A stretch of 64,000 bases of DNA, taken from Aurantimonas coralicida DSM 14790. Lineage in GTDB: Bacteria > Pseudomonadota > Alphaproteobacteria > Rhizobiales > Rhizobiaceae. Position 1 is the stretch's first letter. Each line of letters starts with the position of its first letter. Positions 30,288-44,160 of the stretch are shown in pieces. The translations under genes and the position numbers were made by a program. Below the pieces are notes generated by a model. That model was not told the origin of the DNA, did not search any database, and worked only from the letters and a program-made list of their open reading frames with translations. Location: assembly GCF_000421645.1 (NCBI RefSeq), contig NZ_ATXK01000006.1, forward strand, positions 124,001-188,000, in the 5' to 3' direction.

Positions 30288-30462
30288 GCACTTCTCCGAA
30301 GACGGTGTTAGTCTTCGTCGAGCGCACGATTTCCCGATCATTCTCTCAGACGTTCAGTCGCTGTTCTGCGGCGTGCGCGGAAGCTGCCGGCGCAGGCGTT
30401 TCGCGCCTTTGCCCCGCGACGGCCAGGGCAACGCACGCGGGCTCGGCCCTCTCTCGACGCCT

Positions 30463-30486
30463 ATACATCGTGAAAAGCGCATGTAT
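30463..30486. promoter_or_regulatory. Sox-region motif A (ATACAT-N12-ATGTAT) upstream of the MBL gene
   Basis: Perfect inverted half-sites ATACAT (30463-30468) and ATGTAT (30481-30486), 34 bases before the start at 30520. Similar sites with the same 12-base spacing precede soxX and the second YeeE gene. Proposed as a binding site for SoxR. Confidence 0.55.
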
Positions 30487-30519
30487 GAATGCGGCCAACG
30501 GGTTTGACGGGAGGATGCC

Positions 30520-31422
30520 ATGATCACGCGACGCAATCTGATGGTTGGCGGGGCCGCCCTGGCCGGCGCGATCGCGGCCGGGGGTACGGTCCGCGCGGCA
30601 TCGCCGGCCGATCCGCTGGCGACACTCAGCGACGGTCATCTGGAACTGCCGGCGTCGTTTCTCCTGTCCCGCCTGCCGGACGAGGATCGCGGGCAACTCG
30701 GTCTTCCGGCGACGGGCGAGGGGGCGGTGCTGACGCCGCCCTGCAATCTGACCCTTTACCGCAGCGGCGAGCGTCTGGTCCTGTTCGATGCCGGCTCCGG
30801 CCCGAACTTCATGCCGAGCGCCGGCCGCCTGCCGGACAGTCTCGACGCGGCGGGCATCGACCCCGGCGCGATCACCGACGTCATCTTCACCCACGCCCAT
30901 CCCGATCACATCTGGGGCGTCCTCGACGATTTCGACGAGGTCGCCTTTCCCGGGGCGGCCTTTCACGTCTGTCGCACCGAGTGGGATTTCTGGCGCTCCG
31001 AGGCGGCGCTGACCGGATTGCCGGAGGAGCGGCAGAGCTTCGTGGTCGGGGCGCGCAGCCGCTTCGATGCCATCGAAGAGAGGACCACGCTGTTCGACGC
31101 CGGTTCCGAGCCCGTTGCCGGCGTCGAGGCGATGGCGGCGTTCGGGCACACGCCGGGCCATTGCGCCTTCGTGCTGCACGGCCTCGATGCGCCGGCGATG
31201 GTGGTCGGCGACGCCATCTCCAACGACCCGGTCTCTTTCGCACGGCCGGATCTGCCATGGGGCGCCGACCAGGACCCCGAGATGGGCGCGGCGACCCGCC
31301 GCCGTCTGCTCGACCGCCTGGCGGCCGACAGGCTGCGCTTCGTCGGCTTCCACCTGCCGCAGGGCGGGCTGGGCCGTGTCGAGGCGGACGGAAACGCCTA
31401 TCGCTTCGTGCCGGAAGCGTGA
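30520..31422 (+). CDS. Exported metallo-beta-lactamase-fold hydrolase next to sox genes
   Basis: 300 residues. The N-terminus ITRRNLMVGGAALAGAIAAG is a twin-arginine signal, so the protein should be periplasmic. HAHPDHIWG is the metal-binding motif, HTPGHCAF the next His ligand and VVGDAIS the bridging Asp; FVGFHLPQGG has the last His. The start has GGAGG-like GGGAGGATGCC upstream. The layout resembles SoxH-type sulfur-island hydrolases, but no substrate can be given. The shared ATACAT motif in its promoter ties it to the sox regulon. Confidence 0.88.
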   Translation: MITRRNLMVGGAALAGAIAAGGTVRAASPADPLATLSDGHLELPASFLLSRLPDEDRGQLGLPATGEGAVLTPPCNLTLYRSGERLVLFDAGSGPNFMPSAGRLPDSLDAAGIDPGAITDVIFTHAHPDHIWGVLDDFDEVAFPGAAFHVCRTEWDFWRSEAALTGLPEERQSFVVGARSRFDAIEERTTLFDAGSEPVAGVEAMAAFGHTPGHCAFVLHGLDAPAMVVGDAISNDPVSFARPDLPWGADQDPEMGAATRRRLLDRLAADRLRFVGFHLPQGGLGRVEADGNAYRFVPEA

Positions 31423-31423
31423 G

Positions 31424-32521
31424 CTATTCGGCCGGCCGCCGCTCGATGCCGCGGAAGGCGTGGCGGATCGAGCCTTCGAGAATATAGGCGAGGCCCAGCC
31501 GCGCGCCGATGGCGATCGAGATCAGCACGATCGGCGCCGAGATGGTGAGCAACGAGGCGGCCGAGATGCCCTGGCCGATCGTGCAGCCCAGCGAGAACAC
31601 GCCGCCCACCCCCATCAGCATGGCGCCGACGAGGTGCCGCGACAGCTCGCGGGCGTCGTCGCAGGCTTCCCAGCGCACATCGCCGCGACGCCAGGCGGCA
31701 AGCGCCGCGCCGATGACCACGCCGAGGACGAGCCCGACGCCGTAATCGGGGAGGACGCCGGTATAGGCGACGATCTGCAAGATCAGGTCGCCGGGCGGTA
31801 CCACGAAGGAGGCGCTTTCCACCTGCACCGGCGCGAAGGAGAGGCCGGCGACATGCGTCGTCGCCAGCCAGCCGAAGGCCACGGCCGCGCCGATGACGAT
31901 GCCGGCGAGGAGCTTGCCGCGGTCGGCGCGGAAACTGGCGGAGCGGAAGACCCAGGTGCCGAGCGCCGCGAGGACGACGAGGCTCATCAGCCATCTGAGG
32001 TCGCGGCCGGCAAGCGCGCTGGCGACGGCGCCGAGCGTCTGGTCGGGCGCCCCGAGCCGGGTCAGGTCGTAGGCCTGCGAATCGACGAGGGCGACGCGGC
32101 CGAGCGCCAGAATGCCGCGCTGGGCGGCGAGAGCCGACAGGCCGAGAACGATGATGACCACCAGCCCGCGCAGCGAGCCGCCACCCAGCCGCACCAGCGC
32201 GCCGAAGCCGCAGGTGCCGACCAGTGCCATGCCGACACCGAAGGCGAGGCCGCCGAGGATCGCCCCGGTCCAGCCGAAGGCGGGGGTGAGATAGAAGCTC
32301 TGCTCCGGGGTGAACTGCCCGGCAAGGACGAGAAGCTGGGTGAGCAGGATAGCGACGAGAATGGCGAGGCCCCAGGCGCGCAGGCCGTTGTCGTCGCCGG
32401 CGTACCAGCGTCGTTCCAGCGCCGAGAGGGTGCAGAAATGATGTCTGCGGGCGACATAGCCCATCGCCGTGCCGGCGAGCAGTCCCGCCAGCGGCAGCGC
32501 AAGGCCGCTTTCCACCAGCAT
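31424..32521 (-). CDS. soxT: YeeE/YedE-family sulfur-compound transporter SoxT
   Basis: 365 residues from the ATG at 32521 (GGGAGG seven bases upstream); an ATG at 32557 is possible. About ten hydrophobic segments with the YeeE/TsuA cysteine pattern: Cys30 in HHFCTLSA, then VGTCGFGALVRLG, then FSLGCTIGQG. TsuA-type proteins take up thiosulfate by passing it between such cysteines. It follows soxS and soxR on the same strand, giving the order soxS-R-T known from Pseudaminobacter. Its stop is one base from the stop of the convergent MBL gene. Confidence 0.88.
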   Translation of the reverse strand: MLVESGLALPLAGLLAGTAMGYVARRHHFCTLSALERRWYAGDDNGLRAWGLAILVAILLTQLLVLAGQFTPEQSFYLTPAFGWTGAILGGLAFGVGMALVGTCGFGALVRLGGGSLRGLVVIIVLGLSALAAQRGILALGRVALVDSQAYDLTRLGAPDQTLGAVASALAGRDLRWLMSLVVLAALGTWVFRSASFRADRGKLLAGIVIGAAVAFGWLATTHVAGLSFAPVQVESASFVVPPGDLILQIVAYTGVLPDYGVGLVLGVVIGAALAAWRRGDVRWEACDDARELSRHLVGAMLMGVGGVFSLGCTIGQGISAASLLTISAPIVLISIAIGARLGLAYILEGSIRHAFRGIERRPAE

Positions 32522-32637
32522 GTCGGTGCCTCCCGAGCGCCCGAGGGGCGCATCCATCTGCGAGCCTATGCCCGGCCCGCAGCGCTTACAAGCCGATCGC
32601 CGTCGTACCCGGCGGGCTACTCACCCGCCGAAGACGC

Positions 32638-33015
32638 TCAGCGCGGCGCGTCCGGCGCGCCTCTGACGGGCGCGCAGAACAATTCGTACAGCGTCCCGAT
32701 CAGCGACGTGACCTCCTCGCTGGCGAGGCTGTAATAGACCGTGCGCCCCTCGCGCCGCGTCTTGACCAGCCGGTCGAAGCGCAGCCGGGCGAGCTGCTGC
32801 GACACCGCCGCCTGGGGCATCGACAGGATCGACTCGATGTCGCCGACGGAGCGCTCTTTCTCCGACAACAGGCACAGGATGACGAGCCGCGTTTCGTGCG
32901 ACATCGCCTTCAGGAGATCGCTCGCCTTTCGGGCCTGGGCGAAGAACGCCTCGGTCTCCTCCGGAGAGGTCGAGGGATCGAATTTGGGAACGGCCCAGTT
33001 GGTCAGATTGCTCAA
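32638..33015 (-). CDS. soxR: ArsR-family repressor SoxR with persulfide-sensor cysteines
   Basis: About 125 residues if started at the TTG at 33015, one base after the soxS stop; no ATG or GTG fits, so the start is uncertain. The winged helix covers about residues 30-100 (SHETRLVILCLL, PQAAVSQQLARLR, REGRTVYYSL). Two cysteines, Cys48 in VILCLL and Cys114 in ELFCAPV, are 66 residues apart, the same distance as Cys41 and Cys107 of the sulfide sensor SqrR. It should repress sox transcription until persulfide links the cysteines. Named SoxR as in Paracoccus; unrelated to the redox SoxR of E. coli. Confidence 0.9.
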   Translation of the reverse strand: MSNLTNWAVPKFDPSTSPEETEAFFAQARKASDLLKAMSHETRLVILCLLSEKERSVGDIESILSMPQAAVSQQLARLRFDRLVKTRREGRTVYYSLASEEVTSLIGTLYELFCAPVRGAPDAPR

Positions 33016-33016
33016 G

Positions 33017-33472
33017 TCACTCGCTCGGTCGGGTCGGTGCGTGCGAAGCCGCGGTCCTGGCCGGCAGGTCGGCCAGCATGTCGTCGAGAAGGCCCCAGAA
33101 GAAGTCTTCCCCGGGATAGCCGCGCAGCCGCGCGATCTCCCGGTCATTGTCGACCAGAATGAAGGTCGGTGTCACCCGCTCCGGTGCAATATGCTGCAGA
33201 TCGTCCGGCCACGGCTCGCTGACATCGACCCGGCGCAGCGGCGCGGTGCGGCCGGCCTCGGTCTTCGGATAGGCCGGCGCGATCTCGGCGTCGAAGCGCG
33301 CGCACCAGATGCAGCCGGGCCGCTCCAGCATTAGGAGTTCGGCGGCAAGGGACGGGCTTGCGGTCACACCCAGCAGCGTCCATGCGAAGACCGCGGCCAC
33401 GATCGACCGTCCGAATCGCCCAACGGGGCGGCGCGGGCGCCCGGTCAGTGGAATTGCAATAGATGATAACAT
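33017..33472 (-). CDS. soxS: Periplasmic thioredoxin-like protein SoxS
   Basis: 151 residues from the ATG at 33472; the ATG at 33478 lies too close to the AGAAG Shine-Dalgarno. A signal anchor or signal peptide ends near SPSLAAE. The active site is ERPGCIWCARF (CxxC) and VTPTF supplies the cis-Pro loop. In Paracoccus SoxS keeps the Sox machinery, especially SoxYZ, in an active reduced state. It is transcribed away from soxV and precedes soxR by one base. Confidence 0.92.
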   Translation of the reverse strand: MLSSIAIPLTGRPRRPVGRFGRSIVAAVFAWTLLGVTASPSLAAELLMLERPGCIWCARFDAEIAPAYPKTEAGRTAPLRRVDVSEPWPDDLQHIAPERVTPTFILVDNDREIARLRGYPGEDFFWGLLDDMLADLPARTAASHAPTRPSE

Positions 33473-33562
33473 ATGCATTCTTCTATCTAATGGCCGGATC
33501 CCGCCGGAGCAAGCCGGCGACCGTTGCTGGCCTCAGATAAGTTCGCAATCGGAAACGTCCAA

Positions 33563-34297
33563 ATGCTCGATGTCGGCTATGGCGCCGCACTGCTGGCGGG
33601 GCTTCTCAGCTTCGTCTCGCCCTGCGTGTTGCCGATCGTTCCGCCCTATCTCGCCTATCTGGCCGGGCTGAGCTTCGACCAGGTTCGCGAACGCGGCACC
33701 GAACCGGCCGTGGCGCGGCAGATCATGCTGGCCTCGCTGGCCTTCGTGGCCGGTTTCACCACGGTCTTCGTCGCGCTCGGCGCCACGGCGAGCCTGGTCG
33801 GGCAGGTGATCGCCCAATGGTTCGATGTCCTGTCGGTCGTTGCCGGCATTATCATCATCATCATGGGCCTGCACTTTCTCGGCGTCTTCCGGCTGTCGCT
33901 GCTCTACCGCGAGGCGCGGGTGAACGTCGCCCAGAAGCCCGCCGGGCCGCTCGGCGCCTATGTCATCGGCCTCGCCTTCGCCTTCGGCTGGACGCCTTGC
34001 GTCGGGCCGGTGCTGGCGGCAATCCTGTTCGTCGCCGGGTCGCAGGACACCGCCTTGCGCGGCGCCGGGCTGCTGGCCACCTATTCCATCGGGATCGGCG
34101 TGCCGTTCCTGCTGGCCGCCGCCTTCGCCACAAGGTTCCTGGCCTTCGCGGCACGGATGCGCCGGCACATGGCGACGGTCGAGAAGATCATGGGCGGCGC
34201 GCTGGTGTTCACCGGTATCCTGTTCGTCACCGGACAGATGGCCACCATCTCCTACTGGCTGCTCGAGACCTTTCCGGTCTTCGCGACGATCGGCTAG
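33563..34297 (+). CDS. soxV: CcdA-like thiol-disulfide transporter SoxV
   Basis: 244 residues from the ATG at 33563, the start that best matches the family; an in-frame start at 33524 is possible. Six hydrophobic helices with the two half-site cysteines in FVSPCVLPIVPP and FGWTPCVGPVLA. It carries reducing equivalents from cytoplasmic thioredoxin across the inner membrane to SoxW and SoxS. It diverges from soxS and leads the rightward run of sox genes. Confidence 0.94.
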   Translation: MLDVGYGAALLAGLLSFVSPCVLPIVPPYLAYLAGLSFDQVRERGTEPAVARQIMLASLAFVAGFTTVFVALGATASLVGQVIAQWFDVLSVVAGIIIIIMGLHFLGVFRLSLLYREARVNVAQKPAGPLGAYVIGLAFAFGWTPCVGPVLAAILFVAGSQDTALRGAGLLATYSIGIGVPFLLAAAFATRFLAFAARMRRHMATVEKIMGGALVFTGILFVTGQMATISYWLLETFPVFATIG

Positions 34298-34393
34298 AAG
34301 GAAGCCGGCCGCTCCGGGGCGGCGGGCGCATGCAGGGCAGGCGGGGCCTCCAGTCGGTCTCGCCAAGGATGATCGCACGTCGAGGAGGACGAT

Positions 34394-34978
34394 ATGGCAC
34401 GGATCTTCATGCTGTCGCTGGTGGCGTTTCTGGCCGCGATGACGCTGTCTCACGCCGCCGAGATCGGCGACGATGGCCTGCACAAGCAGCCCTGGTTCTC
34501 GCTGTCGTTCCGGGACGTCGCCGAGGACATCGAGACCGCCCGCGAGGAGGGCAAGCGCCTCGCCATCGTCTTCGAGCAGCGCGGCTGCATCTACTGCCGC
34601 AAGATGCACGAGGAGGTGCTGTCCGATCCGCAGGTGCGCGACTACATCACGGCGAATTTCAACGTGGTGCAGTACAACATGTTCGGCGACGAGGAGGTCA
34701 CCGATCTGGACGGATCGTTGCTGTCGGAGAAGACCGCGGCCCGCCGCTGGAGCGTCGTCTTCACCCCGACCATCCTGTTCATGCCGGAAATTGCCCCGGA
34801 GGACGGAACCGTCGGGGAGGCGGCTGTCGCGACCATGCCCGGCGCCTTCGGCAAGTCGACGTTCCTGCATATGTTCCAGTGGGTTCGCAAGAAGGGCTAT
34901 GAGGGCGACGAGCACTTCCAGAAATACCATGCGCGCAAGCTGGCGGCCGACGGCGGGGCGATGGAAACGACCGAATGA
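34394..34978 (+). CDS. soxW: Periplasmic thioredoxin SoxW
   Basis: 194 residues. Signal peptide in the first 20 residues (FMLSLVAFLAAMTLSHAAE). The redox site is EQRGCIYCRKMHEEV, and VVFTPTILF is the cis-Pro loop. SoxW takes electrons from SoxV and reduces the Sox carriers. The ATG at 34394 follows GGAGGACGAT. It lies 97 bases after soxV and 149 before soxX, so soxXYZABCD probably has its own promoter. Confidence 0.92.
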   Translation: MARIFMLSLVAFLAAMTLSHAAEIGDDGLHKQPWFSLSFRDVAEDIETAREEGKRLAIVFEQRGCIYCRKMHEEVLSDPQVRDYITANFNVVQYNMFGDEEVTDLDGSLLSEKTAARRWSVVFTPTILFMPEIAPEDGTVGEAAVATMPGAFGKSTFLHMFQWVRKKGYEGDEHFQKYHARKLAADGGAMETTE

Positions 34979-34984
34979 CTTGCT

Positions 34985-35010
34985 GCAGTGCAGCAAGATT
35001 ATTGCACTGC
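34985..35010. promoter_or_regulatory. Perfect 8-bp inverted repeat in the soxW-soxX gap
   Basis: GCAGTGCA at 34985-34992 and TGCACTGC at 35003-35010, ten bases apart, seven bases after the soxW stop. It could be an operator in the soxX promoter region, or a short hairpin ending soxVW transcripts, although no T-run follows. Confidence 0.55.
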
Positions 35011-35014
35011 TACA

Positions 35015-35038
35015 ATACATTCGAAAATAACAATACTT
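35015..35038. promoter_or_regulatory. Sox-region motif C (ATACAT-N12-ATACTT) upstream of soxX
   Basis: ATACAT at 35015-35020 and ATACTT at 35033-35038 share the half-site and exact spacing of the sites before the MBL gene and the second YeeE gene. It is 90 bases before soxX in an AT-rich stretch. The soxW-soxX gap is a known SoxR target in related organisms. Confidence 0.55.
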
Positions 35039-35127
35039 GAATTGATGTCGCCGTCCTGCTTTACTGGGTCGACAGGATCGAAGCAGATCGGCTACCCAAA
35101 GCCGACATTCGGGAGGAAGCCTTGTCC

Positions 35128-35589
35128 ATGATGCGTTCGTTCGCGCTGAGCCTTGCATTGTCCGTGGCCCTGACGCCGCTGGCACTCGCTGCAGAAACCG
35201 CCCCGGCCGATGTGTCCTTCGCGGACATGGCGGTGGCGGATTCGCTGACCGGTCAGCCGGGCGACCCGGTCGAGGGGCGCAAGGTCTTCGCCAATCGCGG
35301 GCTCGGCAACTGCCTTGCCTGCCACATGGTGCAGGACCTCGAAAGCGAGCTCTTCCACGGTAATGTCGGACCGGCGCTCGATGGCGTCGCCGAACGATGG
35401 GAGCCGGGCCAGATCCGCGCGATCGTCGCGAACGCCAAGGAAATCTTCGGCGAGCAGACCATCATGCCGGGCTTCTACACGCTGGATGTCGGCGTGGACG
35501 TGGCCGAGAAATTTCAGGGCAAGACGATCCTTTCGGCCCAGCAGGTCGAAGACGTCGTCGCCTATCTGGCGACGCTCAAGGGCGAATAG
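35128..35589 (+). CDS. soxX: Cytochrome c SoxX
   Basis: 153 residues from the ATG at 35128, spaced 8-9 bases from GGGAGGAAG; the TTG at 35122 is too close. Signal peptide cut near residue 22. One haem site, Cys62-Leu-Ala-Cys-His66, with TIMPGF giving the axial Met. SoxX is the small haem subunit of SoxAX, which joins thiosulfate oxidatively to SoxY in the periplasm. Its order and spacing with soxYZABCD are standard. Confidence 0.95.
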   Translation: MMRSFALSLALSVALTPLALAAETAPADVSFADMAVADSLTGQPGDPVEGRKVFANRGLGNCLACHMVQDLESELFHGNVGPALDGVAERWEPGQIRAIVANAKEIFGEQTIMPGFYTLDVGVDVAEKFQGKTILSAQQVEDVVAYLATLKGE

Positions 35590-35601
35590 GAAGGACATTC
35601 C

Positions 35602-36057
35602 ATGTACGTGACGAGACGCAAGCTTTTCGCCCTGTCCGCCGGAGCGGCCACGGCGGGCATGTTCGCCTTCGCGCCGGGCCGGGCCTTTGCCACGGTCGAG
35701 GCGACCGAAAAGGCGCTGTCGGACTTCACCGGCGGCAAGACGCCGGAGAGCGGCAAGATCACCCTGACGGCGCCCGAGATCGCCGAGAACGGCAACACCG
35801 TGCCGATCTCCGTCGATGTCGAGAGCCCGATGACCGACGACAGCTACGTGGAATCGGTCACGATCTTCGCCGAGGGCAATCCCAATCCCGAGGTCGCGAC
35901 CTTCCACTTCACGCCGATGAGCGGCGCCGCCGCCGCGACGACGCGCATCCGGCTGGCCAAGACCCAGAACGTCATCGCCGTCGCGAAGATGAGCGATGGT
36001 TCGACCTATTCGGATCGCAAGGAAGTCAAGGTGACGATCGGCGGCTGCGGCGGCTGA
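35602..36057 (+). CDS. soxY: Sulfur carrier protein SoxY
   Basis: 151 residues. Tat signal VTRRKLFALSAGAATAGM at the N-terminus. The protein ends in the swinging-arm GGCGG with Cys149, the residue that holds the thiosulfate-derived sulfur while the other Sox enzymes act on it. The Ig-like core (about 50-140) is intact. It starts 12 bases after soxX and pairs with SoxZ. Confidence 0.97.
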   Translation: MYVTRRKLFALSAGAATAGMFAFAPGRAFATVEATEKALSDFTGGKTPESGKITLTAPEIAENGNTVPISVDVESPMTDDSYVESVTIFAEGNPNPEVATFHFTPMSGAAAATTRIRLAKTQNVIAVAKMSDGSTYSDRKEVKVTIGGCGG

Positions 36058-36139
36058 CGCCGAGGCGACCGCTTCACCCACGAGGATCGATGCGTGACCC
36101 GGCCCGCTTAGGCGGATGGTCACCCCAGGAGAACGAGAC

Positions 36140-36466
36140 ATGGCAACGCCGAAGCCGAGAGTGAAGGTTCCCAAGAGCGCCAGCGCCGGGGAAGTCATCA
36201 CCATCAAGACCCTGATCAGCCACGAGATGGAATCCGGCCAGCGCAAGGACAAGGACGGCAATCCGATCCCGCGGCAGATCATCAACAAGTTCACCTGCGA
36301 GTTCAACGGAACCAAGGTGTTCGAGTGCGATATCGAGCCGGCCGTGTCGGCCAACCCCTATTTCGAGTTCACCGCCAAGGTGCCCGAAAGCGGGACGTTC
36401 AAGTTCACTTGGGTGGACGACAACGGTGAGACCTACACCGACGAACAGACCATCGAGGTCAAGTAG
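36140..36466 (+). CDS. soxZ: SoxZ, partner of the SoxY sulfur carrier
   Basis: 108 residues from the ATG at 36140 (AGGAGAACGAGAC upstream). No signal peptide: SoxZ is folded with SoxY in the cytoplasm and exported with it by the Tat system. An Ig-like beta sandwich with IKTLISHEMESGQRKD and NPYFEFTAKVPESG, both typical of SoxZ. It follows soxY by 82 bases. Confidence 0.96.
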   Translation: MATPKPRVKVPKSASAGEVITIKTLISHEMESGQRKDKDGNPIPRQIINKFTCEFNGTKVFECDIEPAVSANPYFEFTAKVPESGTFKFTWVDDNGETYTDEQTIEVK

Positions 36467-36529
36467 ACGCCGGACGGGGGAGCGGTATCGGTCGGTCCGG
36501 CGCCGAGCCTCGAAATGGGAGGAAATTGC

Positions 36530-37396
36530 GTGAAGAAGACTGTTATCGCCCTGTTGAGTGTGTCCTGCCTGGGAAGTCTCGCGCTCGTTTCCAGTGCTCT
36601 CGCCGACCCGGTCGACGAGGGCCTGTCCATTGACGGCCAGGAGATGATCACCGTCGCGCCCGCGCCGAGCGAGCCTGAAGGACATCCCTTCGACGAAGTG
36701 CGCTCCGGCTGGCTCTACCGCGAGGCCGAGACGCGTCAGGTCGAGTCCGACAGCTTCGAGAATCCCGGCATGCTGAATGTCGAGCGTGGCGAGGATATCT
36801 GGAACACGGTCGAGGGCGCCGCCGGCAAGTCCTGCGCCACCTGCCACGAGGACGCCTCGGAGAGCATGGCCGGCGTTGGCGCCAGCTATCCCAAATGGGA
36901 CGCGGCGAACAGCAGGCCGATCAACGTCGAATTGCAGATCGATGCCTGCCGGACCGAACATATGCAGGCCGAGCCCTACAAGTTCGACGCCCAGGACCAG
37001 AAGGACCTGACCGCCTTCATCAAGCACCAGTCACTGGGAACGCCCGTCGAGGTGGATCTGGCCGCCGGCGAGATGATGAGCTGGTGGGAGCGGGGCAAGG
37101 AGCGCTATTACCTGCGCACCGGCCAGCTCAACCTGTCCTGCGCCTCCTGCCACGAGGACAATAACGGTCGCTATATCCGCGCCGACCACCTCAGCCAGGG
37201 CAACACCAACGGCTTCCCGACCTATCGTCTGAAGCAGGCCAATCTCGTGTCGCTGCACAACCGCTTTCGCGGCTGCATTCGCGACACCCGGGCCGAGTTC
37301 CCGAAGGCCTTCTCCGACGAGCTGATGGCGCTGGAAGTCTACACCGCTTGGCGCGGTGGCGGCCTGTCGGTCGAGACGCCGGCCGTTCGCCAGTAG
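36530..37396 (+). CDS. soxA: Dihaem cytochrome c SoxA
   Basis: 288 residues from the GTG at 36530 (GGGAGGAAATTGC upstream), which gives a clean signal peptide ending SSALA; an ATG at 36515 overlaps the Shine-Dalgarno. Two haem sites, Cys102-xx-CysHis106 and Cys204-xx-CysHis208, make it the dihaem type. Cys140 fits the axial ligand of haem 1 and Cys249 in RGCIRDTR the active-site persulfidated ligand of haem 2. With SoxX it starts thiosulfate oxidation on SoxY. Confidence 0.95.
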   Translation: MKKTVIALLSVSCLGSLALVSSALADPVDEGLSIDGQEMITVAPAPSEPEGHPFDEVRSGWLYREAETRQVESDSFENPGMLNVERGEDIWNTVEGAAGKSCATCHEDASESMAGVGASYPKWDAANSRPINVELQIDACRTEHMQAEPYKFDAQDQKDLTAFIKHQSLGTPVEVDLAAGEMMSWWERGKERYYLRTGQLNLSCASCHEDNNGRYIRADHLSQGNTNGFPTYRLKQANLVSLHNRFRGCIRDTRAEFPKAFSDELMALEVYTAWRGGGLSVETPAVRQ

Positions 37397-37497
37397 CCAG
37401 TCGCGGCGAGGGCGACTGCGGTCGCCCCTCGCGCATCTGACAATTCGATACGGAATCAAGTCCGGCCCGCCCATGCGATCCGGACCGGGGGTGAGCC

Positions 37498-39192
37498 ATG
37501 TTCTCCAGACGTGAGTTTCTGACCGCGACCGTCGCGCTGGCGGCGCTCACCGGTTCCGGTCTGTCGGGACGCTGGTCCCGCGCTGCCGCCCAGCAGGCGC
37601 TGAGCGAGGATGCCCTGCTCGGCGCGCCCGATTTCGGCAATCTGACGCTGCTCCACGTCACCGACATCCACGCCCAGCTCAAGCCGGTCTTCTTTCGCGA
37701 GCCCGCCGTCAATATCGGCATCGGCGAGGTCGCAGGGCTGCCGCCCCATGTCAGCGGCGCGGACTTCCTGAAGCTCTACGACATCGCGCCGGGATCGCCG
37801 GACGCCTATGCGCTGACCTCCGAGGACTTCTCGGCGCTGGCCTCGCGCTACGGCCGGATGGGCGGTCTCGACCGGATCGCGACCATCGTCCGTCGGGCGC
37901 GGGCCGAGCGCGGCGACGACAACGTGCTGCTCCTGGATGGCGGCGACACCTGGCAGGGCAGCTACACGGCCAACAAGACCGCCGGCGCCGACATGATCAC
38001 GGCCATGAACGTCATCGCGCCCGACGCCATGACCGGCCATTGGGAATTCACCTATGGCACCGAGCGGGTGGAAGAGGCGATCGCCGCTCTGCCGTTCCCG
38101 TTCCTCGGCTCCAACATCTTCGACCGCGAATGGGACGAGCCGGCCTTCGAGGCATGGAAGATGTTCGAGCGCGGCGGCTCCAAGGTCGCGGTGATCGGCC
38201 AGGCCTTCCCCTATACGCCGATCGCCAACCCGTCATGGCTGATCCCCGGATGGTCCTTCGGCATTCGCGACGAACAGATCGCCGCCCATGTGGAAGAGGC
38301 GAGGGCGGCCGGGGCCGATCTCGTCGTGCTCCTGTCCCACAACGGCTTCGACGTCGACCGCAAGCTCGCCTCGCGCGTCGACGGCATCGACATCATCCTG
38401 ACCGGCCACACCCACGACGCGCTGCCCGAGCCGGTGCAGGTCGGCAACACGCTGCTGATCGCCTCGGGCTCGAACGGCAAGTTCCTCAGCCGCCTCGATC
38501 TCGACATCGCCGACGGACGCCTGAAGGATTTCCGCTACCGGCTGATCCCGGTCTTCTCCGACGTGATCACCCCGGATGCGGAGATGGCCGCCGTCATCGA
38601 CGAGGTCCGCGCGCCCTATGCGGACGAGCTCCAGCGGGTCATCGGCCACACCGACGGGCTTCTGTATCGGCGCGGCAATTTCAACGGCACCTGGGACGAC
38701 GTCATCTGCGACGCGCTTCTGGCCGAGCGCGACGCCGAGATCGCGCTGTCGCCGGGCTTCAGATGGGGCACGTCCGTCCCCGCCGGCAGCGACATCACCG
38801 TCGAGGATCTGCACACCGTCTGCGCCATGACCTATCCGGAGGTCTACCGCAACATGATGAGCGGCGAGACGCTGAAGGCGGTGCTGGAGGATGTCGCCGA
38901 CAATCTCTTCAACGTCGATCCCTACTACCAGCAGGGCGGCGACATGGTCCGTGTCGGCGGTCTCGGCTACGGCATCGATCCGACGAAGGAGATCGGATCG
39001 CGGATCTCCGACATGACCATCCTCGCCACGCAGGAGCCGATCGAAGCCGGGCGCGACTATGTCGTGGCGGGCTGGGCGTCGGTGAACGAAGGCACCGAGG
39101 GACCGGCGATCTGGGATCTGGTGGAGAGCTATCTGAAGGGCCACCCCGAGATTTCGCCGAGCGAAAACCGCAGCGTGACCGTGCGGGGCTGA
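37498..39192 (+). CDS. soxB: Sulfate thiohydrolase SoxB
   Basis: 564 residues, 5'-nucleotidase-type dimanganese enzyme. Tat signal FSRREFLTATVALAAL. Metal and active-site motifs in order: VTDIHAQL (Asp56, His58), LLDGGDTWQG, MTGHWEFTYG (a SoxB hallmark), LLSHNGFDVD and TGHTHDALPEP. It releases sulfate from the SoxY-bound thiosulfonate. It starts about 100 bases after soxA and is followed by a short AT-rich gap before soxC. Confidence 0.97.
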   Translation: MFSRREFLTATVALAALTGSGLSGRWSRAAAQQALSEDALLGAPDFGNLTLLHVTDIHAQLKPVFFREPAVNIGIGEVAGLPPHVSGADFLKLYDIAPGSPDAYALTSEDFSALASRYGRMGGLDRIATIVRRARAERGDDNVLLLDGGDTWQGSYTANKTAGADMITAMNVIAPDAMTGHWEFTYGTERVEEAIAALPFPFLGSNIFDREWDEPAFEAWKMFERGGSKVAVIGQAFPYTPIANPSWLIPGWSFGIRDEQIAAHVEEARAAGADLVVLLSHNGFDVDRKLASRVDGIDIILTGHTHDALPEPVQVGNTLLIASGSNGKFLSRLDLDIADGRLKDFRYRLIPVFSDVITPDAEMAAVIDEVRAPYADELQRVIGHTDGLLYRRGNFNGTWDDVICDALLAERDAEIALSPGFRWGTSVPAGSDITVEDLHTVCAMTYPEVYRNMMSGETLKAVLEDVADNLFNVDPYYQQGGDMVRVGGLGYGIDPTKEIGSRISDMTILATQEPIEAGRDYVVAGWASVNEGTEGPAIWDLVESYLKGHPEISPSENRSVTVRG

Positions 39193-39221
39193 CAGCCGCG
39201 CCTCGACAGGCGCCTTGCCGC

Positions 39222-39242
39222 ATGATATATGCAAAATATCAT
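39222..39242. promoter_or_regulatory. Inverted repeat in AT-rich soxB-soxC gap
   Basis: ATGATAT-ATGCAAA-ATATCAT, perfect 7-bp arms, in a 76-bp gap whose centre is almost pure A/T while everything around is GC-rich. It may mark a separate soxCD promoter or operator. It does not match the ATACAT-N12 motif well. Confidence 0.45.
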
Positions 39243-39268
39243 ATATTTATATGTCGGGAGGAATGCGG

Positions 39269-40564
39269 ATGAGCGACGGACCCGGAACGAGCGAACGCGG
39301 CCTCTCCCGCCGCAACCTCCTGAAGCGTGGTCTTGCGATCGGCGGAACCGCGGCCGCGGGGCTGGCGGGCCTGCGAAGCGCAGCCGCCGCCCCGGCCGGC
39401 GGGGATCCGGCGATCACCGAAATCCAGGACTGGAATCGCTATCTCGGCGAAGGCGTGGTGGCGCGGCCCTACGGCACGCCGTCGCCCTTCGAGGCCCATG
39501 TGGTGCGCCGTGACGTCTCCTGGCTGACGGCCGATGCGACGAGTTCGGTGAGTTTCACGCCGCTGCACGAGCTGGAGGGGATCATCACCCCGAACGGCCT
39601 CTGCTTCGAGCGCCACCATGCCGGGATCGCCGAGGTGCCGCCGGACGAGCATCGCCTGATGATCAACGGCCTCGTCGATCGTCCGCTGGTCTTCACCATG
39701 GAGGATCTCAAGCGCTTCCCCCGCGAGAACCGCGTCTACTTCCTCGAATGCGCCGCCAATAGCGGCATGGAATGGCGCGGTGCCCAGCTCAATGGCTGTC
39801 AGTTCACCCACGGCATGGTCCATTGCGTCATGTATACCGGCACGCCGCTCCGCTACCTGCTGGAGGAGGCCGGAGTGAAGACCGCCGGCAAATGGCTGCT
39901 TGCCGAGGGCGCCGACGCCGCGGCGATGACCCGCTCGATCCCGATGGAGAAGGCTCTCGACGACTGCCTCGTCGCCTGGAAGATGAATGGCGAAGCGCTG
40001 CGGCCCGAACAGGGCTACCCGGTGCGGCTCGTCGTTCCCGGCTGGGAAGGCAATATGTGGGTCAAGTGGCTGCGCCGGCTGGAAGTCGGCGACCAGCCCT
40101 GGGAGCAGCGCGAGGAAACCTCCAAATACACCGATCTCCTGGCGAACGGCACGGCGCGCAAATTCACCTGGGGCATGGAGGTGAAGTCGGTCATCACCAA
40201 TCCGAGCCCCCAGGCGCCGATCACCCATGGCCGCGGCCGCACCGTGCTGACCGGGCTCGCCTGGTCGGGAAATGGCCGGATCAAGCGGGTGGACGTGTCC
40301 CTCGACGGCGGCCGCAACTGGCATGCGGCGCGGATCGACGGGCCGAGCCTGCCGATGGCGCTGCACCGTTTCTACTACGATTTCGACTGGGACGGCTCCG
40401 AACTGCTGCTGCAGTCCCGTGCCATGGACGAGGAGGGCTTCGTCCAGCCGACGAAGTCCGCGCTGCGGGCCGCGCGGGGCGAGAACTCGATCTACCACAA
40501 CAACGGCATCCAGACCTGGCACCTGAACGCCGAGGGAGGGCTCGAGAATGTCGAAGTGTCCTGA
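39269..40564 (+). CDS. soxC: Sulfane dehydrogenase molybdenum subunit SoxC
   Basis: 431 residues from the ATG at 39269, seven bases after GGGAGG; ATGs at 39251 and 39263 are less well placed. Tat signal LSRRNLLKRGLAIGG. Sulfite-oxidase-family molybdopterin fold with the metal-binding Cys161 in FLECAANSGMEWRG, and a C-terminal Mo-co dimerisation domain (VDVSLDGGRNW). With SoxD it oxidises the sulfane sulfur on SoxY. It overlaps soxD by 17 bases. Confidence 0.96.
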   Translation: MSDGPGTSERGLSRRNLLKRGLAIGGTAAAGLAGLRSAAAAPAGGDPAITEIQDWNRYLGEGVVARPYGTPSPFEAHVVRRDVSWLTADATSSVSFTPLHELEGIITPNGLCFERHHAGIAEVPPDEHRLMINGLVDRPLVFTMEDLKRFPRENRVYFLECAANSGMEWRGAQLNGCQFTHGMVHCVMYTGTPLRYLLEEAGVKTAGKWLLAEGADAAAMTRSIPMEKALDDCLVAWKMNGEALRPEQGYPVRLVVPGWEGNMWVKWLRRLEVGDQPWEQREETSKYTDLLANGTARKFTWGMEVKSVITNPSPQAPITHGRGRTVLTGLAWSGNGRIKRVDVSLDGGRNWHAARIDGPSLPMALHRFYYDFDWDGSELLLQSRAMDEEGFVQPTKSALRAARGENSIYHNNGIQTWHLNAEGGLENVEVS

Positions 40565-41702
40565 GACGATCCTCGCCGTTGCCCTGATCCTGACCGGCCT
40601 GTCCGCCGCGCCCGTGCTGGCGCAGGAGGGGGATGCCACGGCCGGCAAGAAGGTCTTCAACCGCTGCCGCGCCTGCCACGATGTCGGCGAGGGGGCGAAG
40701 AACAAGATCGGCCCGCATCTGAACGACCTCTACGGTCGCGCCGCCGGTGGCCTCGACAACTACAATTACTCGCCGGTCGTGAAGACCGCCGGGGCGGAAG
40801 GGCTCGTCTGGAACGACGAGACGCTGGCGGCCTATCTCGCTGATCCGCGCGGTATGCTGCCGGGCAATAAGATGGCGTTTCCCGGCCTGAAGAAGGACAA
40901 GGAGGTCACCGATCTCCTGGCCTATCTCGCGACCTTCTCGGCTGAACAGGCCGCCGAGGCGGCACCGGCCCCTGCCGAGGATGCTCCCGCCCAGCCCGAA
41001 GCCGAAGCGGAGCCGGAGCCGGACGCGGTGGCGCAGGCATCACCGCACGGCAGCGCCGCGTCGGCGACCGCGCCAACGCAGCATAGCGAATCGTCCACGG
41101 GCCCGATGCGTATCGGCCGCGCCGCGACGGACGCGGAAGTCGCCGCCTGGGACATCGACATCCGGCCGGACGGCAAGGGACTGCCGGTCGGCAGCGGTAC
41201 GGTCGCGGACGGCGAGGTGATCTTCACCGAGCAATGCGCCTCCTGCCACGGCGATTTCGGCGAGGGCAGGGGCCGCTGGCCGGTGCTCGCCGGCGGGCGG
41301 GACACGCTCACCCGCGAACGGCCCGAAAAGACCGTCGGCTCCTATTGGCCGCATCTGTCGACCGCCTATGACTACATCCGGCGGGCCATGCCCTTCGGCA
41401 ATGCGCGGTCGCTCAGCGACGACGACGTCTACGCGCTGACGGCCTATGTCCTCTATCTGAACGATGTGGTGACCGACGAAGAGTTCGAACTGTCCGACAA
41501 GAACTTCACCTCTATCGAGATGCCGAATGCTGGTGCCTTCATCCCCGACGACCGCGCGTCGGAGGCCCATTACAAGGCCGATGCCGATCCCTGCATGTCG
41601 GACTGCAAGCCGGGGCCGGTGTCGATCACCTCGCGGGCGCAGGTTCTCGACGTGACGCCGGACAGTGGCGCCGACGGGCCGGCGGGTGGTAACGTCGACT
41701 GA
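40548..41702 (+). CDS. soxD: Dihaem cytochrome c subunit SoxD
   Basis: 384 residues, signal peptide ending VLAQ. Two cytochrome domains: haem 1 at Cys40-Arg-Ala-Cys-His44 with KMAFPG as its Met region, and haem 2 at Cys230-Ala-Ser-Cys-His234 with AMPFGNA. A Pro/Ala/Glu-rich linker (about residues 130-185) joins them. It is the electron-accepting partner of SoxC. Its presence means the cell can oxidise thiosulfate fully to sulfate rather than storing sulfur. Confidence 0.96.
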   Translation: MSKCPETILAVALILTGLSAAPVLAQEGDATAGKKVFNRCRACHDVGEGAKNKIGPHLNDLYGRAAGGLDNYNYSPVVKTAGAEGLVWNDETLAAYLADPRGMLPGNKMAFPGLKKDKEVTDLLAYLATFSAEQAAEAAPAPAEDAPAQPEAEAEPEPDAVAQASPHGSAASATAPTQHSESSTGPMRIGRAATDAEVAAWDIDIRPDGKGLPVGSGTVADGEVIFTEQCASCHGDFGEGRGRWPVLAGGRDTLTRERPEKTVGSYWPHLSTAYDYIRRAMPFGNARSLSDDDVYALTAYVLYLNDVVTDEEFELSDKNFTSIEMPNAGAFIPDDRASEAHYKADADPCMSDCKPGPVSITSRAQVLDVTPDSGADGPAGGNVD

Positions 41703-41770
41703 GACGCGGGGCCGGTGGGGTCCGCGCCGGGCCTGCGGGCCCGGATCAGACCCGAGTGAAAGGCATCGCC

Positions 41771-42304
41771 ATGAAAATCGCCCTCCTAGCCGCCGCCGCG
41801 CTGATCGCGTCGTCGCTCGCCGCCAAGGCCGGTCCGGACGACAAATCGTCCTTCGAGCCCGTGCAGTACGAGGCGCAGAAGGTGCTCTACGATTTCAATT
41901 TCGATGCCCCGCTCGACGGCGTGCGGGCGCTCGGCTTCATCCGCAACCACATCAAGGCCGCCAAGGAGTTCGGCGATTTCGAGGGCTCGAAATTCGTCGT
42001 CGTCGCCCATGGCAACGAACTGCATGGCTTCTCGCGCCTCAACCGCGCGGCCTTCCCGGACGTATATGATGCAGTCAAGGAACTGGCCGACGAAGGAGTC
42101 GAGTTCCATATCTGCCGCAACGCCGCCAAGGGGCGGGGCTACGCGCCGGACGAATTCTACGACCTGTTCACCGTCGTCCCGGCCGCGGTGATCGACATCG
42201 CGAAATACGAGAATGCCGGCTACAGCTACATGTATCCGGCGCTCACGCCGCGGATGAACCGCGACGACGTGATCGCGAAATATCCCGAGCTCGAGCTTCA
42301 GTAA
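41771..42304 (+). CDS. Exported DsrE-family protein 1
   Basis: 177 residues from the ATG at 41771 (AAAGG upstream). A signal peptide ends AAKAG. The rest is a DsrE/DsrF/TusD-like alpha-beta fold: VVVAHGNELHGFSR, then EFHICRNAAKGRGY with the single cysteine at the position used for sulfur relay in the family, then VVPAAVIDIAKYENAGYSYM. It follows soxD by 68 bases. It probably handles sulfane sulfur in the periplasm or trims SoxY by-products; that is inference. Confidence 0.87.
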   Translation: MKIALLAAAALIASSLAAKAGPDDKSSFEPVQYEAQKVLYDFNFDAPLDGVRALGFIRNHIKAAKEFGDFEGSKFVVVAHGNELHGFSRLNRAAFPDVYDAVKELADEGVEFHICRNAAKGRGYAPDEFYDLFTVVPAAVIDIAKYENAGYSYMYPALTPRMNRDDVIAKYPELELQ

Positions 42305-42318
42305 CGAAAGGCGAGACC

Positions 42319-42840
42319 ATGGCCAGCAACGCCCCCGCACCGATCGCGCACCGGCGCACCCGGCTGACCGCGGCGCTGGCCGGTCTGGTTTTCGCCTTTG
42401 CCGCCATGCTGGCGGCCGGTCAGGCCGTGACGGTGGCCGCAGCGCAGGAGGCCGAGGATGACGGCGGCTTCGTCACGCACAAGCTGGCGCTGCAGGTCTC
42501 CGACAAGGACGAGGCGGCGATGCGGTCGGCGCTCGATATCGCCGCCAATGTCTCGCGCTTCTACACGGCCAAGGCCGAGGAGGTGGAGATCCGCATCGTC
42601 GTCTACGGCCCCGGTATCGAGATGCTGCGGCCGGAGCGCACCCCGGTGATGGACCGGCTGACCTCCTTCGACCAGAGCATGCCGAATGTCGGCTTCGTGG
42701 CCTGCGGCAACACGCTCGATTCGCTCGAGCAGGCCGAGGGCGAGCGGCCAGAGATCGTCTCCTTCGCCGAGGAGGTGGAAGCCGGCGTCGCCGAGCTGAT
42801 CCGCCTCGACGAGACCGGCTACACCATCGTCAAGCCGTAG
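42319..42840 (+). CDS. Exported DsrE-family protein 2
   Basis: 173 residues with a long N-terminal signal segment (charged start, hydrophobic stretch, end near VAAAQ). The DsrE-like core has ALQVSDKDEAAMRSALDIA, IRIVVYGPGIEML and VGFVACGNTLDSL, where the single Cys lies in the CGNT loop typical of periplasmic DsrE proteins. It begins 14 bases after DsrE 1, so they are one unit and may form a heteromer like DsrEF. Function not established. Confidence 0.86.
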   Translation: MASNAPAPIAHRRTRLTAALAGLVFAFAAMLAAGQAVTVAAAQEAEDDGGFVTHKLALQVSDKDEAAMRSALDIAANVSRFYTAKAEEVEIRIVVYGPGIEMLRPERTPVMDRLTSFDQSMPNVGFVACGNTLDSLEQAEGERPEIVSFAEEVEAGVAELIRLDETGYTIVKP

Positions 42841-43001
42841 CCGCCCGGCGCAGCCCTTTAGGCTTCAGCAGCCGGCAGCTGCGCGGTCCAGAACGCCCTA
42901 ACCTGACCGATACCTGCCGGGGGGAACGAGAATCCACGCAGCGGGCGTTTGCCGCAAAGCTGTTTCCGCCTGCAGCCCCGGCCCGCATTCCTGTAGCGCG
43001 A

Positions 43002-43025
43002 ATACATCGCGAACTCCGCATATGT
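43002..43025. promoter_or_regulatory. Sox-region motif D (ATACAT-N12-ATATGT) upstream of second YeeE gene
   Basis: ATACAT at 43002-43007 and ATATGT at 43020-43025 with the same 12-base spacing as motifs A and C; CG-GAA is also kept in the spacer. It ends 28 bases before the ATG at 43054. Confidence 0.52.
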
Positions 43026-43053: not shown

Positions 43054-44160
43054 ATGGCGATGGATTTCGTTCCCCTGATCGATCTCGTCGGCGAGAACGC
43101 CACCGCGCTGATCGGCGGCGCCGTCGTCGGCGGCCTGTTCGGCATCTTCGCCCAGCGCAGCGCCTTCTGCACGCGCTCGGCCGTTCTGGATCTCACCCGG
43201 CGGCGTGGCCTGTCCGCGCTGGCGGTCTGGGCCGGCGGCTTCGCGGTCGCGGTGCTCGGCATCCAGCTTCTGCTCAATTACGGCTATGTCGACGTGCGCG
43301 AGACGCGCTTCTTCTCCACCGCCCAGAGCCTGTCCGGCGCCATCATCGGCGGCCTCGTCTTCGGCCTCGGCATGGTGCTGTCGCGCGGCTGCGTCTCCCG
43401 GATGATCGTCTTGGCGGCATCGGGCAATCTGCGCGCGATCTATACGTCGGTGATTGTCGCGATCGTCGGTCTGGCAACCTATAGCGGCGTCCTCGTCCCC
43501 TTGCGGGATGCTGCGGGCGGCCTGTGGAGCACGGCGGCGATCGGCGGCAACGACCTCCTCGCCCATGCCGGCCTCGGCCAGGAAGCGGGCATTGCCATTG
43601 GTGCGATCCTTGCCGTTTCGGCGCTGGCCCTCGCGCTGGTCTCGAAGGTGTCCGTCTGGCGTTTCATCGGCGGCATCGGCGTCGGCGCCAGCGTCGTCGC
43701 CGGCTGGTACTTCACCTACACCCTGTCGCTGCAGGTGTTCGAGCCGATCCAGGCCGAGAGCCTGTCCTATATCCGGCCGCTGGCCACCACCGGTGCGCTT
43801 GCCACCGACCCGGACAGCTTCTTTGGCCTCGATCAGGGTGTCCTGATCGGCACGCTTGTCGGCGCGTTCCTCGCGGCAATCCTGTTCGGCAATTTCCGCA
43901 TCGCGACCTTCTCCGAGCCCGGCACGCCGTCTGTGCTGCGCTATACGATCGGCGCCGTCCTGATGGGTTTCGGCGGCATCCTGGCGGTCGGCTGCACCAT
44001 CGGCGCGGGCTTCACCGGCGGCGCGGTGCTGGCGGTCTCATCACTGGTCGGCCTTGCCGCGATGGTGGTGGGCGCCGCTTTGGCGGATCGCTTCATCGAC
44101 CGGGAGCGGGCGCCCGCCGCGGACACGCTGCACGACGCATCGCTCTCGCCGGCCGAATAG
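43054..44160 (+). CDS. Second YeeE/YedE-family (TsuA-like) sulfur-compound transporter
   Basis: 368 residues, about ten hydrophobic segments. The three conserved cysteines of thiosulfate-type YeeE transporters are present: Cys39 in SAFCTRSA, Cys113 in LSRGCVSRM and Cys314 in AVGCTIGAG. It is a paralogue of SoxT on the far side of the sox cluster, preceded by a 213-bp gap with motif D, so it has its own promoter. Probable import of thiosulfate or another sulfur species; which one is unknown. Confidence 0.88.
   Translation: MAMDFVPLIDLVGENATALIGGAVVGGLFGIFAQRSAFCTRSAVLDLTRRRGLSALAVWAGGFAVAVLGIQLLLNYGYVDVRETRFFSTAQSLSGAIIGGLVFGLGMVLSRGCVSRMIVLAASGNLRAIYTSVIVAIVGLATYSGVLVPLRDAAGGLWSTAAIGGNDLLAHAGLGQEAGIAIGAILAVSALALALVSKVSVWRFIGGIGVGASVVAGWYFTYTLSLQVFEPIQAESLSYIRPLATTGALATDPDSFFGLDQGVLIGTLVGAFLAAILFGNFRIATFSEPGTPSVLRYTIGAVLMGFGGILAVGCTIGAGFTGGAVLAVSSLVGLAAMVVGAALADRFIDRERAPAADTLHDASLSPAE

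Follow-up and report, generated by a model that had tools for sequence, protein, structure and literature searches.

The 64,000-nt stretch of DNA analysed here (the window) contains the sulfur-oxidation gene island of Aurantimonas. On the minus strand, soxSRT encodes the thioredoxin-like SoxS (33017..33478), the ArsR/SmtB family protein SoxR as the proposed repressor (32638..33018, start approximate) and, as its last gene, a first YeeE protein (soxT1, 31424..32557). It adjoins the divergent soxVW on the plus strand, coding for the DsbD/CcdA-like SoxV (33524..34297) and the thioredoxin-like SoxW (34394..34978). SoxS, SoxV and SoxW are named by position; the match of SoxS to Pfam Thioredoxin_2 and the matches of SoxV are below cut-off. 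Also on the plus strand lie soxX (35122..35589; TIGR04485 above cut-off), the first gene of soxXYZAB, and soxC (39269..40564), the first gene of soxCD, which is named from synteny and whose start was set from the RBS (39263 is also possible). A second YeeE gene, soxT2 by position, follows at 43054..44160 (plus strand). TsuA-type matches of both YeeE genes are below cut-off.

On the other side of soxSRT, an MBL-fold hydrolase (30520..31422, plus strand) displays a Tat-like RR N-terminus as well as HxHxDH and GHTPGH motifs, matches Pfam Lactamase_B (5e-17) and is probably exported. Its relatives by sequence in the PDB are an MBL hydrolase, methyl parathion hydrolases and an AHL lactonase. The name of an AidB-type AHL lactonase was rejected because the match stays below the curated cut-off (135.4 versus 360 bits). 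SoxH-type profile models exist, and the profile search returned no SoxH-type match for this protein. The MBL gene is present in 60 of 67 SoxR-sox loci.

Predicted operator sites in the island

Five predicted SoxR-type operators, none assigned to a strand, are found in the window, and their distances to gene starts place them in promoter positions, in line with the earlier note on this DNA. Upstream of the MBL gene, ATACATCGTGAAAAGCGCATGTAT (30463..30486) is centred 45 nt before the ATG, and its outer palindrome is perfect, as had been claimed. Likewise present where described are the sites of soxX (ATACATTCGAAAATAACAATACTT, 35015..35038, 3 mismatches) and of soxT2 (ATACATCGCGAACTCCGCATATGT, 43002..43025, 2 mismatches, centre 40 nt before the ATG), together with a weaker site at the soxS start (ATAGATGATAACATATGCATTCTT, 33459-33482). 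The latter turned out to be one of two overlapping matches (33459-33482 and 33467-33490), which form a predicted operator in the divergent soxS/soxV promoter (33459..33490); here, AACATATGCATnCTTnTAT stays unchanged between varying flanks in an alignment of 14 Aurantimonadaceae loci. The earlier list of four sites was real but incomplete, as the strongest site of the window, upstream of soxC (39225..39248), had been missed. A GAA said to be kept in the spacer was rejected as a conserved element because its register differs (two sites have it at spacer bases 4-6, the soxX site at 3-5).

Read by eye, the soxX promoter has its -35 element TTGAAT at 35037-35042, overlapping the final two bases of the operator, 17 nt before TTTACT. 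A promoter scan of 30300-35200 did not report this -35/-10 pair and returned one weak site, away from the operators (0.4 expected). No terminators were found in the same segment (2.4 expected), and the inverted repeat 34985-35010 was dismissed as a terminator, the repeat being broken in L051.

Motif conservation and association with SoxR

The motif was defined by free-form discovery in the promoters of 67 related sox loci, with the MBL, soxV, soxX and YeeE2 sets run separately. One and the same AT-N12-AT motif emerged from all four sets, three of which gave it as a palindrome. Its consensus is A.AtAT.cAAAtaTTTg.ATaT.T, and log-likelihoods were 282-910 versus 44-138 for mononucleotide shuffles. 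Among 82 oriented loci, including L034 and the window, 15 without soxS, soxV or soxX were left out of the promoter counts. Loci L001-L030 were left out as well; from a 20-locus set only L034 was counted, 10 others being equal in size to contigs of the 80-locus set, and L036, L042 and L044-L050 were examined at the end, outside the main counts.

The commonest core letters of the motif coincide, in the same frame, with ATTC-N8-GAAT, the SqrR operator of Rhodobacter capsulatus as given in the available part of PMC9774250. The motif differs from this operator by its conserved outer A.A and T.T, and the MBL and YeeE2 sites of the window read ATCG-N8-GCAT. Among 236 sites from relatives and window, 24 contain exact ATTC-N8-GAAT and 118 one exact half; since none of the five window sites matches exactly, the motif is related to the SqrR operator without being classed as one.

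Two matrices were applied, the first trained without Aurantimonadaceae and the second, used with a threshold of 11, exclusively on 102 sites from other families, all at soxV or soxX promoters. With the first, the window sites score 33.3 (soxC, rank 1 of 64 kb), 23.7 (soxX), 12.7 (MBL, 30463), 12.3 and 9.6 (soxS/soxV) and 11.1 (YeeE2, 43002); they take ranks 1, 2, 3, 4 and 6, and rank 5 is the top site again in a shifted register. The second matrix puts soxC (34.9), soxX (22.3), YeeE2 (12.9) and MBL (12.5) at the top of the 64 kb and leaves the soxS/soxV matches below threshold (9.5 and 9.9). Scores of the Aurantimonas MBL and YeeE2 sites are low (11-13). The motif shared by the five island promoters is very probably where SoxR lands.

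In relatives, the first matrix detects the motif at MBL in 57/60 and at soxX in 64/64 loci, soxX being a training promoter except in Aurantimonadaceae. A site upstream of soxT1 occurs in 2/65 loci, and Aurantimonas soxT1 carries no motif at its own start. With the second matrix, sites were found at MBL in 47/51 loci plus 9/9 of the held-out family, at YeeE2 in 23/27 plus 3/3 and at soxC in 26/47 plus 10/13. Control genes remained nearly empty (SoxT1 0/51, SoxR 3/53, SoxW 1/51, SoxY 1/51, SoxZ 0/51, SoxA 1/49, SoxB 1/48, SoxD 1/47), and all eight together gave 1 further match in the held-out family. Overall, MBL has the motif in 56/60 loci and each control gene in 0-3 of 47-53. DsrE2 has sites in 2/6 and 0/12 loci. 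YeeE2 promoters separate from MBL carry a site in 4/7 loci; a YeeE2 site also occurs in L052, L053 and L036, and in Pseudaminobacter salicylatoxidans (L073) soxV and soxX both carry the motif. Among 31 unassigned sites, 2 fall within a located gene.

SoxR is the ArsR-type regulator that the earlier note had recognized in the island. By pattern match, both of its cysteines (in α2 and at the C-terminus) and its recognition helix QAAVSQQLARLR occur in 67/67 sox loci, and homologues in loci without sox genes have two cysteines in 15/15. The identical helix is found in the closest solved structures, 6o8k-6o8o, which we take to be SqrR. Assignment of SoxR as a BigR equivalog (NF040642) was rejected at 89.6 bits versus a curated cut-off of 155.

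To compare relatives with and without a linked SoxR, 20 loci of each kind were hand-picked among the matches listed. L153 was dropped from the SoxR-linked set because it overlaps the training set, while L163, flagged solely for a 60-base match in a tRNA-Pro region, was kept. Outside the training set, the motif is present in 17/19 SoxR-linked versus 4/20 SoxR-less sox loci (p 1.7e-5, ignoring kinship) and, at a score of at least 17, in 16/19 versus 1/20 (kinship likewise ignored). One of the positives, L160, is AT-rich, with 5.4 matches expected by chance. L150 and L157 are the SoxR-linked loci without a site; L150 belongs to the same family (f27) as three SoxR-less genomes, so the contrast fails there. 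Further SoxR-linked loci with soxX contain the site in 4/5 cases (L036, L042, L046, L048), the one lacking it being L047, from the same region as L157. Where SoxR occurs without soxX, sites were found in L045 and L049 and none in L044 and L050. This association with SoxR is observed here, as are the sites, their conservation and their promoter specificity.

Alternative readings of the motif

It is exceedingly improbable that the motif is a chance likeness of AT-rich patches, picked post hoc in a GC-rich window. The pattern was indeed chosen after the sequence had been seen, and the loose palindrome alone (at most 3 mismatches) is not significantly enriched, as 5 are found in the window against a mean of 2.64, and 11 of 100 shuffles reach at least 5. 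For ATACAT-N12-AT, the window has 4 rows, at 3 places, versus a mean of 0.21 in 100 shuffles, none of which reached 4. A chance origin is contradicted by the held-out tests, in which matrices trained on other families recover the same sites. At a score of at least 11, the soxV+soxX-only matrix gives 5 matches (4 distinct places) in the window, 100 Markov shuffles a mean of 0.03 (maximum 1) and 100 column-permuted matrices a mean of 0.38 (maximum 3). Across the 67 loci, 306 positions score at least 15, training sites included, versus 1 in Markov-shuffled loci; column-permuted matrices on every third locus reach a mean of 13.3 and a maximum of 89 versus 111 real matches, some of them matching often. 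Very unlikely, too, is an element of the sox promoters themselves (AT-rich -10 or UP-like) in place of a regulator site. In its favour, the sites are rich in AT and overlap with the core of the promoter, and TTGAC precedes the operator by 22-25 nt at 30/62 MBL sites, so that the operator would cover the -10 region; at other promoters TTGAC has no fixed distance to it. However, the motif is a palindrome in which each arm shows AT in 236/236 sites scoring at least 11 (a set selected by score), its placement varies from over the -10 at MBL to beside the -35 at soxX (by eye), and it is mostly missing from sox loci of SoxR-less relatives.

An operator of another ArsR-type regulator, either a BigR-like paralogue or a CmtR-type metal sensor, deserves more weight but is still unlikely. 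C4:304918 of this genome codes for another SoxR/BigR-like protein (48% identical), and the arm pattern alone is unspecific for SoxR. In the whole-genome scan put forward earlier as a check, ATACAT-N12-AT gave 15 rows (14 places) in 4.6 Mb versus 5 rows for the backward control; 3 of the 14 places lie inside the window. A covariance model built from sequence only (R1) lacked the sensitivity needed for genome scanning: it recovered 3/5 operator places in the window, and in the genome the soxC site (E 0.5) was its sole match with an E-value of 10 or less. An IUPAC pattern with backward control was used instead. With at most 1 mismatch, it gave 12 distinct places, 4 in the island and 8 elsewhere (control 6). 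Exact matches to the generalised arms number six in the genome, including two CmtR-like ArsR/CDF promoters and metH; against the matrix, a metH promoter outside the window reaches 19.6. CmtR-type operators of the ArsR/SmtB family share the outer arms with the same 12-base spacing. In contrast, their inner bases misfit the SoxR matrix, the CDF promoter sites scoring -15 and -10. Further, the motif tracks linked soxR, and no site occurs in L174 and L175, whose only SoxR-like proteins are distant ones (38-41% identity).

Proposed SoxR regulation and its reach

We consider it highly likely that the motif is the SoxR operator and controls MBL, soxS/soxV, soxX, soxC and soxT2 in the island. This reading, which upholds the regulon membership proposed earlier for MBL and YeeE, is favoured because a matrix trained on soxV and soxX predicts the MBL and YeeE2 sites, because the motif follows linked SoxR and not sox genes as such, and because SoxR shares its helix with 6o8k-6o8o, presumably SqrR, whose published site matches the commonest form of the motif core. 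From these comparisons we infer both SoxR as the binding protein and the direction of control. SoxR would be a two-cysteine ArsR-type repressor sensing sulfane sulfur, and its operator, A.AtAT.c-N8-g.ATaT.T, a palindrome of 24 bp akin to that of SqrR. When oxidisable sulfur is lacking, a SoxR dimer would sit over the promoter core and block RNA polymerase. Sulfane sulfur in the cell would bridge the two cysteines and release SoxR from DNA, a step taken from work on Hyphomicrobium, whereupon all five units would be transcribed together.

The SoxR proteins of P. salicylatoxidans, Paracoccus and H. denitrificans have the protein family and the soxSRT arrangement in common with Aurantimonas. SoxR-binding promoter segments are reported for P. 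salicylatoxidans in the available parts of PMC10451225 and PMC5748708. For this group of systems, SoxR-regulated promoters are described between soxS and soxV (PMC5748708, in part). For H. denitrificans, whose cluster, unlike the Aurantimonas island, has shdr genes, DNA release by polysulfide is shown in the part of PMC10451225 at hand. The terms ‘consensus’, ‘lactamase’, ‘hydrolase’ and ‘hemA’ are absent from the main text of that article, and soxC appears in its introduction and references only. The two Aurantimonas YeeE genes correspond by position to the YeeE-like transporters SoxT1 and SoxT2, with soxT1 in soxSRT, and both transporters of H. denitrificans are of the SoxT1 type (PMC11582611, in part). 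The predicted SoxR operator at soxT2 is an addition to this picture; since the same source already links soxT2 to sox, MBL is the newer regulon member of the two.

Beyond the island, the motif was found in 18/18 SoxR loci holding hemA versus 1/30 hemA genes elsewhere, the latter being 30 of 43 hemA matches taken as loci of 2.9-4.2 kb with no SoxR inside those stretches. In Hoeflea, hemA has nearby soxR homologues that retain both cysteines and an identical recognition helix, the motif spans the hemA start codon, and no soxS, soxV or soxX occurs within the 12.5-20.4 kb examined. On balance, we lean towards SoxR-type repressors controlling hemA (5-aminolevulinate synthase) besides the probably exported MBL as a core Sox gene; the initial step of heme synthesis would then be coupled to persulfide sensing.

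These findings provide a SoxR-operator consensus usable in many Hyphomicrobiales, by which the regulon may be read from sequence. They predict that the probably exported MBL-fold hydrolase, so far little studied, belongs regularly to thiosulfate oxidation and that soxT2 would be induced along with the sox genes in Aurantimonas. Beyond the window, they predict that some genera may have their heme synthesis under persulfide control.

The motif in the sox island and in related SoxR loci

The window spans G000:C6:124001–188000 of a 4.6-Mb genome. Its gene island runs MBL(+) (an MBL-fold hydrolase gene), soxT1(−), soxR(−), soxS(−), soxV(+), soxW, soxXYZAB, and soxCD, followed by a DsrE-family gene, one further gene that matched no Pfam family, and a second, soxT2-like YeeE gene (YeeE2, +), the sox names being mostly assigned by position and synteny. 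The island's SoxR, a proposed ArsR-type repressor, is 99% identical to the closest named SoxR, from Aurantimonas manganoxydans. A tRNA-Pro (CGG) gene lies directly 5′ of the MBL promoter (30211–30287).

All four motif sequences that the earlier note had described at MBL, soxS, soxX, and YeeE2 are present at the positions given. ATACAT-N12-AT occurs at three places in the window versus 0.21 expected, and at 14 places in a scan of the own genome; this excess is suggestive, though the pattern was chosen post hoc. For that reason, and because the loose palindrome by itself shows no enrichment in the window, a comparison with relatives was undertaken. We oriented 82 SoxR-centred loci (80 from the search of relatives, L034, and the window), 67 of which hold soxS, soxV, or soxX. 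The 160-nt upstream regions were subjected to an expectation-maximisation search without supplying the original pattern, separately for the promoters of MBL (n = 57, near-duplicates removed), soxV (n = 63), soxX (n = 58), and YeeE2 (n = 28). The free-form search found one common motif in all four sets (log-likelihoods of 282–910 versus 44–138 for mononucleotide shuffles), and its best conserved positions are the AT-N12-AT already seen by the earlier note, here discovered independently. The palindromic form recovered the motif for MBL, soxV, and YeeE2, and at soxX returned another A/T-rich palindrome instead. The consensus A.AtAT.cAAAtaTTTg.ATaT.T derives from 175 sites of the four promoters, Aurantimonadaceae left out; AT-N12-AT is kept in 236/236 sites scoring at least 11.

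Applied to the 64 kb, a first matrix trained outside Aurantimonadaceae ranks the soxC site first (39225, score 33.3), soxX second (35015, 23.7), MBL third (30463, 12.7), soxS/V fourth (33459, 12.3), and YeeE2 sixth (43002, 11.1). Rank 5 is a shifted copy of the soxC site, and the best match away from these places scores 2.5. A stricter matrix from 102 sites of soxV and soxX promoters only, again with Aurantimonadaceae held out, detects the MBL site in 47/51 loci of other families and 9/9 of the held-out family, the YeeE2 site in 23/27 and 3/3, and the soxC site in 26/47 and 10/13. The soxC counts are probably underestimates, because several high-scoring sites directly 5′ of soxC remained unassigned owing to a misplaced gene start. 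DsrE2 matches in 2/6 and 0/12 loci, respectively; eight control genes give 0–3 matches per 47–53 loci, with a total of one in the held-out family. The soxS/V site of the window reaches only 9.5–9.9 with this matrix. In every third locus, 111 real matches compare with a mean of 13.3 for column-permuted matrices that keep the base make-up, one of which reaches 89.

The MBL and YeeE2 promoters

MBL is present in 60 of the 67 sox loci and convergent with soxT1 in 55. HxHxDH is found in 59/60 MBL proteins and RR near the start in 46/60; the PDB sequence relatives of MBL are hydrolases and lactonases, and a periplasmic sulfur intermediate as substrate would be a guess. MBL and YeeE2 are divergent from a common promoter in 23/67 loci (L067, L068, L072, L082, L084, L094, L096, L105, L108–L110, L112, L113, L117–L121, L123, L125, L126, L129, L130), with an identical 24-mer in 21 of them, so the counts for the two genes are not independent. 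In L069, MBL lies 5′ of YeeE2 on the same strand. Separate YeeE2 promoters carry a site in 4/7 cases (the window, L052, L053, and L036, a further same-family locus); the matrix scan found none at those of L070, L092, and L093, nor at the MBL gene of L036. In L046, where ~5 kb separate MBL from the rest of the sox genes, MBL has its own site. No report of MBL as a SoxR target was found in the available portions of the open-access literature on SoxR, soxT, sox clusters, and MBL.

SoxR as the predicted regulator

Regions of 14 kb around soxX were hand-picked across the order from 20 genomes with and 20 without a nearby SoxR; one SoxR-linked locus was dropped for training overlap. A site scoring at least 11 is present in 17/19 SoxR-linked versus 4/20 SoxR-less loci (p = 1.7e-5), and one of at least 17 in 16/19 versus 1/20 (p = 4e-7), kinship being ignored in both. 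Two of the four SoxR-less positives have a GC of 0.48, where ~1 chance match is expected, while SoxR-linked L160 (GC 0.42) has seven matches versus 5.4 expected. L150 and L157 encode SoxR and yielded no site in these regions, and the contrast does not hold inside family f27. Despite f27 and uncorrected kinship, the motif tracks SoxR and not the sox genes as such, which supports the earlier proposal of a SoxR operator as a prediction.

Both cysteines and helix QAAVSQQLARLR are kept in 67/67 SoxR proteins of sox loci. The helix is identical in the closest solved structure (6o8k–6o8o), labelled there only as an ArsR-family regulator, which we take to be SqrR. The SqrR site, deduced as ATTC-N8-GAAT (PMC9774250), equals positions 5–8 and 17–20 of our motif. 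Among the sites scoring at least 11, 24/236 contain it exactly and 118/236 contain one exact half. In Pseudaminobacter salicylatoxidans (L073), the motif scan places sites at soxV, soxX, MBL, and soxC. The soxW–soxX region of this species is reportedly among the mapped SoxR-binding segments. Two papers, PMC10451225 and PMC5748708, cite work of other groups that reported SoxR-binding promoter segments in this species. In L045 (6350–6373) and L049 (13109–13132), which have no soxX nearby, a motif scoring 20–21 lies 5′ of the gene for the SoxR homologue, possibly reflecting autoregulation.

Across the genome that contains the window, AHAYAT-N12-ATRTDT, a generalised form of the arms, matches exactly at six places and with one mismatch at six more, soxX among them; the backward control gives six in all. 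Three of the exact places are in the sulfur island, and the other three lie at CDF and metH promoters. Of these, two are ATATAT-N12-ATATGT palindromes that are almost the same and sit on two contigs, each flanked by a CmtR-like ArsR gene and, divergently, a gene for a CDF transporter (G000:C19:5629–5652, L135; G000:C25:5776–5799, L136); they score −15 and −10 with the SoxR matrix. The arms are thus not confined to SoxR sites but recur at promoters of other ArsR-type regulators, and it is the inner bases that carry the SoxR signal. The third, ~50 nt before metH (G000:C1:319217–319240, L132), scores 19.6 and may be either a SoxR target or an operator for a different ArsR-type regulator. Ahead of a BCCT transporter gene, a site reaches 12.9.

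A candidate hemA link and the proposed mechanism

The matrix also matches hemA in 18/18 SoxR loci holding this gene (L072:14950–14973, L067, L075, L081, L087–L090, L097, L098, L100–L106, L115; scores 10.9–19.8), in a test designed after hemA matches had already been seen. The 24-mer ends over the start codon in all 18, overlapping the ribosome-binding site and ATG. No soxS, soxV, or soxX was found in 12 of these loci, 11 of which are named Hoeflea and are therefore related to one another. The L072 HemA protein (5-aminolevulinate synthase) exceeds the TIGR01821 cut-off. Among 30 hemA genes taken from relatives, each in a 2.9–4.2 kb locus without SoxR, only one scores that high, and this match (L196) lies elsewhere, 63 nt 5′ of the start. 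A limited literature search found no report of a SoxR–hemA link, and “hemA” is absent from the main text of the Hyphomicrobium denitrificans RNA-seq paper (PMC12423496). The 1.46-fold rise of HemA in a polysulfide-related exporter mutant of R. capsulatus (PMC6424863) may offer a distant hint only.

At 30/62 MBL sites, TTGAC lies 22–25 nt 5′ of the operator, which would therefore overlie the −10 region there; no TTGAC at fixed spacing is apparent at the other promoters. The soxX operator adjoins a weak −35, read by eye. Between soxW and this operator, a perfect inverted repeat, GCAGTGCA-N10-TGCACTGC (34985–35010), is disrupted in A. manganoxydans (L051). The SoxR of H. denitrificans keeps sox and related genes repressed and no longer binds DNA once polysulfide bridges both cysteines (PMC10451225), and the YeeE-like SoxT1B relays the signal inward (PMC11582611). 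By analogy, SoxR on its operator would likely act in Aurantimonas by steric repression, which sulfane sulfur would relieve.
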